From contig CABXVU010000003.1 in the NCBI GenBank assembly GCA_902515775.1, positions 1-32,347 of the forward strand: a stretch of DNA of 32,347 nucleotides, written 5' to 3'. Origin of the DNA: an uncultured SAR86 cluster bacterium. Lineage in GTDB: Bacteria; Pseudomonadota; Gammaproteobacteria; Magnimaribacterales; D2472. This document shows positions 15,003-25,022 of this stretch, in pieces. Position 1 is the stretch's first letter. Every line of letters begins with the position of its first letter. The notes beneath the pieces were generated by a model. It made no database searches and had not been told where the DNA came from. It was given only the letters and a program-made list of their open reading frames with translations. A program made the translations under genes and the position numbers.

Positions 15003-16439
15003 TTATTTTCTATAATCTAAGGGAGGTTTTCTTTCCCCAAGGAGGGGATAATACTCAAAATCTTCACCAACTGTATTTATGTACTCAGTTTTTGCCAACG
15101 TAATAATCTCAGGACTTAAAAATAGATCTTTTGCTGTATCAGCAAGAACTTGAGCAGCTAACTTAGTTCCTTTGAGGCCTATGGAATGGCCACCTGTAGA
15201 TACTGCTTGCCAAGAATGAGCAGCCGTTCCAGGAACCCACGTTGCAGTTCTTAAGCCGGCCTGTGGAACAACCCAGCTGACATCCCCAACATCTGTTGAG
15301 CCATATGTATGACTTGTTAAATAAGGCCTTATATTTTCTTGATCTCCAATCATACTCCCAGGAGAGATTAAAGTTTGATGAATTTTTTTTGCATATTCAT
15401 GTTCTGCTTTTGAATACTGAATTCCTCCACGTGATAGAAGGTTTTTATGCATAACCTTTTGAAGAGTTTCATTAGGAAGCTTGGAATAATTTCCATGCAT
15501 CACTTCATATGTAACATCAGTTTGTGTTCCAATGGCAGCGCCTTCTGCAGCTTCAACCACCCATTCAAATATTTCTTGTACTTTTTCCCTTCTTGGATGC
15601 CTAACATAGTAATAAACCTCAGCTAAATCAGGTATTACATTTGGCGCAAGACCTCCTTTAGTAATGACGTAATGAATTCTAGACTCTTGAGGTATATGTT
15701 CTCTCATCATATTAACCATCATGTTCATAGCCTCAACTCCATCAAGAGCAGATCGACCCTTGTGTGGAGACCCAGCAGCATGTGCTGAGATACCGGTGAA
15801 TCTAAATTTTGCAGATTTATTTGAATTTGAAGATTCAGCGTTTGCTGCATTGGAACTACTAGGATGCCAATGTAATACCGCATCAACATCGTCAAATAGT
15901 CCAGCACGAACCATGTATACTTTTCCTGAACCACCTTCTTCTGCTGGAGTACCATAGAACCTAATTGTTCCTTTAGTATTTGTTTCAATAAGCCATTCTT
16001 TAACTGCTATGGCTGCCCAAGCAGATGCTGCACCAAATAGATGATGTCCGCAGGCATGACCAGCAATGACATCATCTCTTTCTTCTTTGAATGGTGATGC
16101 AGTCTGCATTAATCCTGGCAAGGCGTCATATTCCCCTAAAATTCCTATTACTGGCCCACCATTAGAGTATTCTGCAATGAATGCTGTTGGTATTTCTGCA
16201 ACTCCAGATTCAATGGTGAAACCATTTGCTAATAATTCTTCTTTTAAAAGTGCTGAACTTTTATGCTCTTGATATCCAACCTCAGCCCAATCCCAGATTT
16301 TTAACGCTACATCTTCAAATGTTTTTTGATGTTTATTTAAAGCTTTATCGAGGCCTGGGTCGGCATGCAAATTAATGGATGTTATTAACCCAATGATAAT
16401 ACTTGATTGGATGAGTATTTTACTTTTAATCCTATACAT
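15003..16439 (-). CDS. Exported M20-family amidohydrolase, AbgB-like
   Basis: This is a metal-dependent amidohydrolase/carboxypeptidase of 478 residues, resembling aminobenzoyl-glutamate hydrolase subunit B, which splits p-aminobenzoyl-glutamate into p-aminobenzoate and glutamate. Metal and catalytic motifs are GHACGHH (127-133), PAEEGG (165-170, catalytic Glu167/168) and HWHP (190-193); the dimer-domain histidine is His220 in ISAHAAGSP. Unlike cytoplasmic AbgB it has a signal peptide ending SINLHA (cleavage after residue 26), so it acts in the periplasm. The next in-frame Met is at residue 111, past conserved sequence, so the start at 16439 stands even though it overlaps the thiolase-like gene by 55 bases. 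The actual substrate (aminobenzoyl-glutamate, acyl-amino acid or another amide) cannot be told from sequence. Confidence 0.88.
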
Positions 16440-17842
16440 TCTTCTTTTTCTACTTGTTTAATAATTTCTTTATCATTAGATGTTAATACTAATCTGTGAC
16501 CTTTGGAATCTTCTGCATAAAAAACAGCTTTTGATGCATTTTGTTTTTCATAAAGACTTGTACAACCAATCACCAAAGCTTCACCTTCTTTTTGATCAGA
16601 CATTGGAACAGCGAGTTCAAGTTTTTCAGCCTGTTTGGTGACGTCCCTGGATTCAAAGTCCATTGCTGGCTCTTTACCCCAAATTGCCAAAGATTGTTTT
16701 GTCATCATTCCTGAAACCCCTGTAACTAAACCTATTTCATTTGTTTCATCACGAATCTTTAGAAGCATTTGTGCCGAAGCATGTAACATATAGTTATTCA
16801 GTGGACCGCCTGCAAAGGGCATGCCTCCAGTCACAGTCTTATCTATGTTATCGGAAAGGTTTAATGCCATCGAAAACATCTGAACAGCGACAGGAAAGCA
16901 GCTATATAGTTCATAAATTGATGGATGTATCTTATTTTTTTGTGCAGTCTCAATGATGGAATCTGCTGCTAGCTTTAGACCCAAGGGATTTGTCATATTA
17001 GGTCTTTGTATAAGACCAATCATATGATTTGTTTCACTTGAAATTAATGGATAAACCCTTTTTGAAAAAGGGATATTAAGCTTATCTGCGATCTCTTCGC
17101 TAGTAAGTATTAAAGCTGATGACTGATTAACATTCCAGCTAGAATTATGAAGTTTATTGTATGGATAAGCTATTCTAGGATTTTTCTCAGAAGATTTTTG
17201 AATCTCATCCGAGGAGTAAATTGTTTGATTCCATGCATGTTGGTTCTCAGATGCAGTTTTTGAAAAATTTGCATAGAGATCACCGAGAAATTTTTCATGA
17301 TCTCTTATAGAATTTTTTTGTTCATAACGCATTGCGCTCTCAAGAATGGCGTAGTAACCAACTGCCATCATTCCCAATGCATCAAGCTCTTCCGTTACAT
17401 ACAAATCATCTTTTGCTTTTACATAATGATCAGGATTTTCAAGTAGTTTCATTTCTTCAAAATCTATCCCTTCTTTAAGGGCTTGAATTTTTTTATATCT
17501 AGCCTCTCCTCCAACAATAAGGCTAGCCCTAATTTCTTCATTAATAATTTTCTTGCACGCTGAATTTATTAAGTTCTGTTGCAGAACTCCGATTTTAGTA
17601 ACGCTAGTTGTTGTACCCGAAAATCCATGCCTTTCAGCGATCCATTTTCCGGGATCCCTATAAGCCCAATATCCTTTAGGAATTTGAATCTCATCAATGT
17701 AATTAACAATCGAAGAATTTTCAGTGTCTTGAATAGCGGCTAAAGTAGCTTGTTCCATCAAGATTAATGCTTCATCAAGTTCAGCAAAAGATCCTTTTTG
17801 TTGCAAGCAACCTATACCAACGAGAACAGGTCTATTTTTCAT
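16385..17842 (-). CDS. Thiolase-like protein with an added C-terminal domain (TLP1/SCP2-thiolase type)
   Basis: The 485-residue protein resembles the SCP2-thiolase/thiolase-like protein 1 group, which act on acyl-CoA or have unknown acyl chemistry. Visible blocks are [14 protein letters not shown] at the N-terminus, [23 protein letters not shown] (about 313-327) carrying a cysteine at the place of the second active-site region, and [17 protein letters not shown] (about 340-356). From about residue 400 a separate beta-rich domain ([13 protein letters not shown] to the end) matches the additional C-terminal domain of TLP1 proteins. Whether it performs thiolysis is uncertain. It is the first gene of the minus-strand run, and its last 55 bases also encode the signal peptide of the M20 amidohydrolase in another frame. 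Confidence 0.8.
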
Positions 17843-17988: not shown

Positions 17989-18591
17989 TTATAAATTATT
18001 TGCGTATTCGTGATTGGTCTTACTGTGATGCTGCTCATCAGCTCGAACACATTTTATTACGTCTGACAGCTTCGCATTATTTGCAAGCTTATAGTAATCA
18101 ATTGCAAGGGGAGGCGCAGGAATGTCTTCTAACTTTCCTGATTCAACCATATTAAGATATTCGGTATAGCTATTTACAGCTTCGTCTTCAAAATAACCAA
18201 TCATTCTATGCGCAGTTCTTGTAAAGAACGCATACATAAAGAGATAAAATATTCCAAAAATTAACTGAGAGCATAGAACTATGAATCTTTCTATAATGTT
18301 TGGTTTAGCAATTTCAATGAAAAACATTAAGTGCATGCGTTCATTTTCAGCCTCTGCAAGCATCTCTCTAATTTTTTCCCCATAGCCTGCTTTCATTTTT
18401 CTTAAGCTTTTAAAATGCATCCAGACTCCAGCTACCATACCAGGTACACCAGCAACTGTTTCTAAGACTACAGCTCTATGTCCGTACCTTTTCAAAAAAA
18501 AGCTATCGGCAATAAGCCTAAAGAATCTTGTCATTGAAAAAGCAAACGCATCTGAAATTCGCGTTGATCCAATTTTTATAAGAGAGTACAT
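17989..18591 (-). CDS. aox: Alternative oxidase (cyanide-insensitive ubiquinol oxidase)
   Basis: This non-haem di-iron enzyme of the inner membrane passes electrons from ubiquinol straight to oxygen without pumping protons. At 200 residues it is the short bacterial form without a targeting sequence. All six predicted iron ligands are present: Glu44 in RAVVLETVAGVPGM, Glu84 and His87 in ENERMH, Glu135 in YFEDEAVNSYT, and Glu186 and His189 in RADEQHH. The catalytic Tyr142 and the TAHR motif (126-129) are also there. The start gives the normal RxxDxFxFxMTRFFR lead-in before RYGHRAVV; no Shine-Dalgarno sequence is seen. It stands alone, convergent with tRNA-Ala and divergent from an SGNH-like gene. 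No binding site for an NO-responsive regulator was recognised. Confidence 0.95.
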   Translation of the reverse strand: MYSLIKIGSTRISDAFAFSMTRFFRLIADSFFLKRYGHRAVVLETVAGVPGMVAGVWMHFKSLRKMKAGYGEKIREMLAEAENERMHLMFFIEIAKPNIIERFIVLCSQLIFGIFYLFMYAFFTRTAHRMIGYFEDEAVNSYTEYLNMVESGKLEDIPAPPLAIDYYKLANNAKLSDVIKCVRADEQHHSKTNHEYANNL

Positions 18592-22850: not shown

Positions 22851-25022
22851 ATGAATACAAAAATAAAAATATATTTAACCTCAATTAATTTCAATTTTTT
22901 AATATTAATTATTACTTCAATAAATCTTTATGGAGCACCTATTATTTTACCAAGCGCGCCAGGCATTGAATCGATTGAAATTGACGAGCAAAAAGCAATT
23001 GCCATTGCAGATACAAGTTATAACTCTCATGATGTAAATTTTTTACAGATGATGATCATTCATCATGATCAGGCTATAATCATGTCAAGATTAGCTCCGT
23101 CCAGGACTAATTCAAAAAATATCCTTGATTTAGCAGGAAGAATTGATACCTCTCAAGAAGATGAAATGTTATTTATGAAAAGCTGGCTTCTTGAAAGAAA
23201 TGAGCCTATTCATAATCAGCATCAACAGAATGTAATGAAGATGGCAGGAATGGCATCATCAGATGAGATAAATGAACTACAAAATAGTAGTGGTGTTGAA
23301 TTTGATAGGCTTTTTTTAAGATTAATGATTCATCACCATGATGGAGCAATTGAAATGGTTGATGAGTTACGGGACCAATCAGGTACTGCTTATGATCCAA
23401 TTTTAAATGAGTTTGTTTCAGATTTAACAAATGATCAGGTTATTGAAATTGAGAGAATGAATGGCCTCTTGATAGGTTTATCAAATGATCCAAGAGCTAA
23501 CTTGTCGCCTGGTTTATATCATGCAGACGAAGCTATATATAATTTAGAAAGAATAGTTTCGCTTAAAAAACCAACTGGTTTTTTTGATCCCAGTAATCCT
23601 ATGGAGTTAAGGCCTCAAGATTCCACAGTTCAAGACTCAATGGATCCTAATCAGCCAAAATCAATTGAACAAAAATCCAAAAATAGTAGATATCCAATGC
23701 TCAGCTTTTCTAATACTGATATGGCATTTAGGGATAATATAATGATAGCTGGAAGCTATCATGGTTTTAATATCTACGAATTAAATGACAATGGTGTACC
23801 ATCTCTAAAAACCTCTGTGATATGTCCAGGAGGTCAAGGAGATGTTTCAATAGTTGGCGATTTATTAATTATGTCTGTCGAGCAAAATAGAGGTAGGGTG
23901 GATTGTGGCCTAGAAGGAGTAAATTCAGAACCTTCTAAAGAAAGGTTTAGAGGCATAAGAATTTTTGATATTTCTAATTTACTTAAACCTAAGCAAGTTG
24001 GTCTTGTACAAACTTGCAGGGGTTCGCACACGCATTCTGTAGTCAGAACTAATTCTGATGATCAAAAAATACTTGTATATAATTCTGGCACTTCAAATGT
24101 TAGGGATCAAGAAGAACTAGAAACATGTTTTGAGGATATACCTGGTGATAATAGAACTGCATTGTTCAGAATCGATATTATTGAAATTCCAATTAATCAT
24201 CCAGAAGACTCTAGAATTGTTAGCAGCCCAACAGTCTTTGCTGACAACGAAAGTGGTGTCTTGGCAGGCCTTTGGAGAGGTGGCGATCATGGTGATGACA
24301 CACAAAGAACATCAAGAACTGATGAGTGTCACGACATAACAGTTTTTCCCTCAGCTAATATAGCAGCAGGAGCGTGTTCAGGAAATGGAATATTGTTTGA
24401 TATTTCTGATCCGTATAATCCTAAAAGATTGGATGTTGTCTCTGATACAGGTTTTGCCTATTGGCACTCAGCAACCTTTAATAATGACGGAACAAAAGTA
24501 GTATTTACTGACGAATGGGGTGGAGGAGGCAGACCTAGGTGCAGAGCCTGGGATCCACTGACCTGGGGCGCAAATGCTGTCTATGACATTGTTGATAAAA
24601 AATTAATTTTTAAAAGTCATTATAAAATGCCTGCACCGCAAAAAGAATCAGAAAATTGTGTTGCTCATAATGGTTCAATTATTCCAGTGCCTGGAAAAGA
24701 TTTATTTATTCAGGCCTGGTATCAGGGTGGCTTATCATTAATGGATTTTACTGATTCCAGTAACCCAATTGAAATCGGATACTTTGATAGAGGCCCTATT
24801 GACGAAGATAATTTAATCACAGGAGGTTATTGGTCTGTCTACTATTACCAAGGAAAAATTTATGCTACCGAGATTGTAAGAGGATTAGATGTCTTTCAGT
24901 TAATTGAAAGCGATTTTCTCTCTCAAAAGCAGATAGAAATGGCCGCAAAAGCTTTACCTGCTTTTGGGCCAATTAATGTATTTAATCCTCAACAACAAGT
25001 TCCAATGCGTTGGCAAAATTAA
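22851..25022 (+). CDS. Exported DUF305 domain fused to an LVIVD-repeat beta-propeller-like domain
   Basis: The 723-residue protein has a signal peptide (about 1-28). Residues about 58-210 are a DUF305 domain, a ferritin-like four-helix fold often linked to copper or other metals, with its two histidine-methionine motifs QMMIIHHDQAIIM (66-78) and RLMIHHHDGAIEM (157-169). From about 285 to 690 follows an LVIVD-type repeat region, predicted beta-propeller, with repeats such as GFNIYEL, GIRIFDISN, GILFDISDPYNPKRL and GLSLMDFTDSSNPIEIG. This part carries well-spaced His and Cys residues (GSHTHS 391-396, CHD 493-495, WHS 538-540, CVAHNGS 603-609) that could bind metal. Biochemical function of this combination is not known to me. 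It is likely transcribed separately from the receptor and possibly with the M16 peptidase, 64 bases downstream. Confidence 0.82.
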   Translation: MNTKIKIYLTSINFNFLILIITSINLYGAPIILPSAPGIESIEIDEQKAIAIADTSYNSHDVNFLQMMIIHHDQAIIMSRLAPSRTNSKNILDLAGRIDTSQEDEMLFMKSWLLERNEPIHNQHQQNVMKMAGMASSDEINELQNSSGVEFDRLFLRLMIHHHDGAIEMVDELRDQSGTAYDPILNEFVSDLTNDQVIEIERMNGLLIGLSNDPRANLSPGLYHADEAIYNLERIVSLKKPTGFFDPSNPMELRPQDSTVQDSMDPNQPKSIEQKSKNSRYPMLSFSNTDMAFRDNIMIAGSYHGFNIYELNDNGVPSLKTSVICPGGQGDVSIVGDLLIMSVEQNRGRVDCGLEGVNSEPSKERFRGIRIFDISNLLKPKQVGLVQTCRGSHTHSVVRTNSDDQKILVYNSGTSNVRDQEELETCFEDIPGDNRTALFRIDIIEIPINHPEDSRIVSSPTVFADNESGVLAGLWRGGDHGDDTQRTSRTDECHDITVFPSANIAAGACSGNGILFDISDPYNPKRLDVVSDTGFAYWHSATFNNDGTKVVFTDEWGGGGRPRCRAWDPLTWGANAVYDIVDKKLIFKSHYKMPAPQKESENCVAHNGSIIPVPGKDLFIQAWYQGGLSLMDFTDSSNPIEIGYFDRGPIDEDNLITGGYWSVYYYQGKIYATEIVRGLDVFQLIESDFLSQKQIEMAAKALPAFGPINVFNPQQQVPMRWQN

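Follow-up and report, generated by a model that had tools for sequence, protein, structure and literature searches.

A CopM-type DUF305 domain paired with a seven-bladed propeller in SAR86 and other bacteria: a candidate exported metalloprotein

A gene in a 32,347-nucleotide contig of an uncultured SAR86 cluster bacterium (the window, that is, the whole stretch of DNA that was analysed) joins a DUF305 domain, of the family that includes the copper-binding protein CopM, to a seven-bladed beta-propeller whose closest match among solved structures is the phosphotriesterase Sb-PTE. The two domains are also found together in other bacteria, either fused or as neighbouring genes, and both carry invariant residues of the kind that bind metals. 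We consider it somewhat better than an even chance that the product is an exported metalloprotein in which DUF305 handles a metal and the propeller, probably an enzyme, uses one.

Layout of the gene and its DUF305 domain

The gene and its parts are as follows:

22851..25022, + strand: DUF305-propeller fusion gene, 723 aa, ATG start (open reading frame and homologues of like architecture)
22851..22934, + strand: hydrophobic N-terminus resembling an export signal, residues 1-28 (sequence inspection; helix at 2-24 in the model)
23031..23471, + strand: DUF305 domain (residues 61-207) of the helical, copper-binding CopM type (Pfam PF03713, E 3.7e-37; matches to PDB CopM and 3bt5)
23052..23066, + strand: first MxxHH motif, M68, H71 and H72 (unchanged in all DUF305 sequences compared, 138 fused and 25 separate)
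23325..23339, + strand: second MxxHH motif, M159, H162 and H163 (invariant in the same 138 and 25 sequences)
23529..24920, + strand: seven-bladed beta-propeller, residues ~227-690 (AlphaFold2 models; Foldseek top match 5hrm, Sb-PTE)

The N-terminus looks like a signal, so the protein would be exported. Its nearest named relatives (L021, L022 and L031) are SAR86 proteins with 80-86% identity. In the AlphaFold2 model, built from a 76-sequence alignment with a mean pLDDT of 79, the DUF305 part consists of helices and is followed by strands that we read as seven four-stranded blades, the last of which is closed by the strands at 227-239; the low-confidence stretches include 256-263, 272-283 and 473-487.

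Assignment of the first domain is secure: PF03713 scores 128 bits (cut-off 27) and is covered from position 1 to 151 of 151, and the two MxxHH motifs lie one in each half of the domain (residues 68-72 and 159-163). Met 109, 134, 159 and 169 are also unchanged in the 163 DUF305 sequences of the DUF305-propeller system. The NCBIfam CopM equivalog model NF049983 gives 55.4 bits, below its threshold of 90. CopM has a higher affinity for Cu(I), which it binds tightly, than for Cu(II); it has a part in copper resistance and is located in the periplasm and the medium (PMC4335983). Cu(II) is also bound strongly by a peptide with the CopM MxxHH motif (PMC11836926); by family, then, copper is the likely metal of the DUF305 domain.

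An earlier reading of the DNA, made from the sequence only, had called this protein a DUF305 domain fused to an LVIVD-repeat propeller, with no settled role for either domain. Its DUF305 call is borne out by the Pfam match above. The propeller is a seven-bladed one in the AlphaFold2 models and its relatives in Nonomuraea match Pfam LVIVD (PF08309; E 7e-7 and 3e-8), but the strict LVIVD label does not hold, since the fusion protein itself has no PF08309 match up to E 10; NCBIfam choice_anch_B (TIGR04312) reaches 49.3 bits, below its cut-off of 100. The remark on roles is apt for the DUF305-propeller pair but not for DUF305, which has a characterised copper-binding member in CopM.

Pairing and spread of the two domains

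Is the fusion a peculiarity of SAR86? Our homologue scan gave at least 521 confirmed stretches, and fused homologues come from SAR86, SAR92, Woeseiaceae, Microbulbifer, Halieaceae, Caulobacterales-type Alphaproteobacteria and Acidobacteriota. The more divergent alphaproteobacterial propellers, obtained in a phylum-wide search, all have genes of their own, each immediately preceded by a DUF305 gene (24 of 24, gap -4 to +44 nt), and these 24 loci are interrelated rather than 24 independent events. A strong full-length DUF305 adjoins the propeller gene in each of 16 alphaproteobacterial genomes checked, and in seven of the 16 it is the only DUF305 present; the fused copy is likewise the sole DUF305 found in its own genome, which is 78% complete. 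In Nonomuraea (L121:5094-8765) two tandem propeller paralogues have one DUF305 gene divergently adjacent. A possibly related arrangement has been published for Starkeya novella, where Snov_0990 (DUF305) lies 12 bp from the YVTN-propeller gene Snov_0991 and is highly expressed in growth on tetrathionate (PMC6527743).

A maximum-likelihood tree divides the fused from the separate forms at one branch and leaves the Nonomuraea pair outside both; a single change between the two forms suffices. This fits one fusion of two once-adjacent genes, with the direction left uncertain by a root on a long outgroup branch. Fusion together with conserved adjacency is strong evidence for a joint function, and these gene comparisons show DUF305 and the propeller to be dedicated partners. 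Each comes from a known family, and their pairing is new as far as the literature was searched: in that search, which covered few subscription papers, we found no paper joining DUF305 with an LVIVD-type propeller, and no description of the fused and two-gene forms or of their ligand set. The viral contigs searched held no relatives of the fusion protein.

Most homologues from outside SAR86 (L053-L100) are extended at the C-terminus by ~80-100 residues that look helical from the sequence and are absent from the SAR86 fusion protein and most of its SAR86 homologues. One homologue (G039:C1:543347-545437) has an in-frame TAG stop. On the SAR86 contig, an alternative oxidase gene (Pfam AOX, E 1e-66; 17989-18591, - strand) lies ~4 kb upstream of the fusion gene and is retained in the three nearest SAR86 loci, and a 485-aa open reading frame at 16385-17842 (- strand) could encode a thiolase-like protein, to judge by its one Pfam match, the sub-threshold TLP1_add_C (E 0.022).

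Conserved residues and the likeness to Sb-PTE

Conservation was counted in 98 and then in 138 fused homologues, down to ~58% identity. The HTH, CHD, WHS and CxxH motifs and both HH/Met motifs are invariant in the 138, as are four DUF305 His and eight propeller Cys; the propeller His at 304, 393, 395, 480, 494, 539 and 606 are also invariant, with one exception, at H480. H60, H121, H124, H161, H224 and H450 are unconserved and H590 is partly kept (62%), and because these other His vary freely the pattern reflects selective conservation and is not a by-product of composition. All 164 family members share D331, H393, H494, D495, H539, D554, E555 and H606. The propeller positions are:

23760..23762, + strand: H304 (138/138 fused; 16/24 separate, H or N; 0/2 Nonomuraea)
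23841..23843, + strand: D331, blade 2, candidate metal ligand at the Sb-PTE E201 position by blade counting (164/164)
24027..24035, + strand: H393-T-H395, blade 3, candidate metal ligand(s) (H393 164/164; H395 all but two)
24288..24290, + strand: H480, in a loop of low confidence that precedes blade 4, a distinguishing mark of the fused form (137/138 fused, 0/24 separate)
24327..24335, + strand: C493-H494-D495, blade 4, candidate ligand H494 (invariant in 164)
24462..24470, + strand: W538-H539-S540, blade 5, candidate ligand H539 at the Sb-PTE H389 position (invariant in 164; WHS also in Sb-PTE)
24510..24515, + strand: D554-E555, blade 5, candidate ligand E555 at the Sb-PTE E407 position (invariant in 164; aligned with AELG of Sb-PTE)
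24657..24668, + strand: C603-V-A-H606, blade 6, candidate ligand H606 (invariant in 164; haloarchaeal relatives and Sb-PTE have His here too)

The second Nonomuraea propeller has Leu at the H395 position. As markers of the fused form, H480 holds and H304 does so in part (16/24 separate); one may speculate that both contact the attached DUF305 domain.

Sb-PTE, from Sphingobium sp. TCM1, is a seven-bladed propeller with a binuclear metal centre, according to the title of a paper cited in PMC11656708. Foldseek places its structure, 5hrm, first with the full AlphaFold2 model (E 7.7e-13; next unrelated entry 2.7e-9) and with a propeller-only model (E 4.4e-15; next 5e-11), a lead over the next PDB match of 3-4 orders of magnitude in both cases, at a TM-score of only ~0.5 and an rmsd of 8.5. 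VIA-align ranks generic WD40 propellers highest and its list is filled by them. A sequence search of the PDB with the propeller recovers a weak stretch of Sb-PTE only, and an hhalign profile comparison gives 97.7% probability, which supports homology of the two propellers. No further relatives of Sb-PTE were found in the 289 alphaproteobacterial genomes searched.

Sb-PTE was compared blade by blade as follows: its sequence was read from a near-identical protein on a Sphingobium plasmid, in which the blades carry, in order, E201, H258, H317, H376 with E394, H462 and H532. We take the metal ligands of Sb-PTE to be E201, H258, H389, E407 and H475, and a 13-residue offset after 258 brings these to E201, H258, H376, E394 and H462, each a Glu or His at the motifs. 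The corresponding series in the fusion protein is D331, H393/H395, H494, H539 with E555, H606 and W661, and by blade counting the acid/His/His/His+Glu/His set of Sb-PTE matches its D331, H393/H395, H494, H539+E555 and H606. A global profile alignment agrees at blade 5 (WHS and the Glu that follows); on blades 3 and 4 the automated alignments are shifted and disagree with one another, and it is from blade counting that we infer the equivalence of the ligands on these two blades. Haloarchaeal, choice-of-anchor-B and other distant propellers keep the acid/His/His/His/Glu/His series at most positions.

The near-identical Sb-PTE gene (L120:1088-2800) is annotated as a hypothetical protein and lies on a conjugative Sphingobium plasmid beside an IS6100 transposase. 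Distant propellers with the acid/His/Glu pattern, also annotated hypothetical, are present on haloarchaeal plasmids (L186, L187), and Halorussus has two of them in tandem (L187:2709-5215).

The sequence-only reading had remarked on the richness of the protein in His and Cys, and the motifs that it named are real features of the family. It had also offered a way to fail, namely that these residues prove scattered in a model and unconserved in homologues. They are conserved without exception, and as to position they appear to sit at equivalent points on the blades. With the invariant metal-type residues, the kinship to CopM and a metalloenzyme as the closest solved structure, there is good support for its suggestion that the protein is exported and binds metal.

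Possible functions and relation to known systems

Metal-binding modules are strongly indicated in both domains. How might they work together? DUF305, with its two MxxHH sites, would capture a soft metal, with copper the most likely one, and might either supply it to the propeller site or keep it away from that site. From the models and the sequence comparisons we infer a metal centre at the mouth of the central channel, with D331, H393/H395, H494, H539, E555 and H606 placed on successive blades in an Sb-PTE-like geometry; the identity of its metal, catalysis there and metal transfer to it are putative in the same way. An Sb-PTE-like site is of the Mn/Zn type and DUF305 of the copper type, so direct supply of metal need not be the sole mode of cooperation. 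The propeller would probably act as a catalyst on a periplasmic or extracellular small molecule, by hydrolysis or by redox chemistry, and the balance favours its being an enzyme. A bolder version, in which DUF305, fused or co-transcribed, is the built-in metal supplier of a secreted metalloenzyme representing a new propeller enzyme class widespread in marine bacteria, we put forward only tentatively.

SBP56 methanethiol oxidases are the model for the main rival, in which the propeller His cluster is a copper site, loaded by DUF305, that oxidises a small reduced substrate, for example a sulfur compound. A dedicated partner from a copper-binding family and a His-rich propeller site speak for such an oxidase, and so does the tetrathionate-grown Starkeya novella DUF305/YVTN-propeller pair (PMC6527743), likened to ours by arrangement only; however, Pfam shows no SBP56 match in the fusion protein, D331 and E555, both invariant, rather suggest a carboxylate-containing binuclear centre, and the top fold match is a hydrolase, and we regard a copper oxidase as doubtful. 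Could the protein scavenge, store or detoxify copper without any catalysis, the propeller being a second binding or docking module? The Met- and His-rich DUF305 would suit this, as would the standing of CopM as a copper-resistance protein of periplasm and medium (PMC4335983). Nevertheless, the full acid/His set is invariant in 164 proteins and looks catalytic, and it is also present in distant relatives without a nearby DUF305, which makes simple storage unlikely. Nor did the loci compared, fused or separate, yield any recognisable conserved copper or copper-efflux neighbours (neighbours were clustered and partly annotated, with crude open reading frames in the high-GC loci).

The sequence-only reading had proposed that the protein helps an adjoining enzyme or receptor, and asked whether it always lies near M16 peptidases or TonB receptors. 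Such genes do adjoin it here and in the three closest SAR86 loci, but among 80 loci only four have a TonB relative next to the gene (three close SAR86 and one with 36% identity), and three, all closest SAR86, have an M16 relative there. The neighbours of the other homologues differ and the gene neighbourhood on this contig is otherwise ordinary. An accessory of either neighbour is thus very improbable, and the metal-handling and metal-using protein proposed above is the reading that we prefer.

DUF305 and LVIVD-type propellers are both common and mostly uncharacterised families, and their pairing, together with the metalloenzyme-like ligands of the propeller, turns them into one testable joint system. 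SAR86 genomes are small (1.26 Mb here), yet many retain the fusion gene, which is therefore probably useful in the ocean. The comparison also links Sb-PTE, a degrader of man-made flame retardants, to a natural family from which its activity could have come.

Among known systems, Synechocystis CopM is of the same DUF305 family and is exported, as the fusion protein appears to be from its sequence, and its copper-binding MxxHH motifs are invariant in the fusion family; CopM is a small stand-alone protein, whereas here DUF305 is joined to a propeller. Snov_0990 and Snov_0991 of Starkeya novella likewise set a DUF305 gene beside a propeller gene, unfused, and Snov_0991, described as YVTN-type, is compared with our family by its gene arrangement. 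Choice-of-anchor B (TIGR04312)/LVIVD proteins have the same type of propeller and share its His, acid and GG(I/V) motifs, but no DUF305 was seen near the distant members examined. The haloalkylphosphorus hydrolase Sb-PTE of Sphingobium (PDB 5hrm/5ioj), with seven blades and the best PDB fold match, is ~14% identical to the fusion propeller, lacks a DUF305 domain, and has Glu in place of D331 and a blade 7 His in place of W661.
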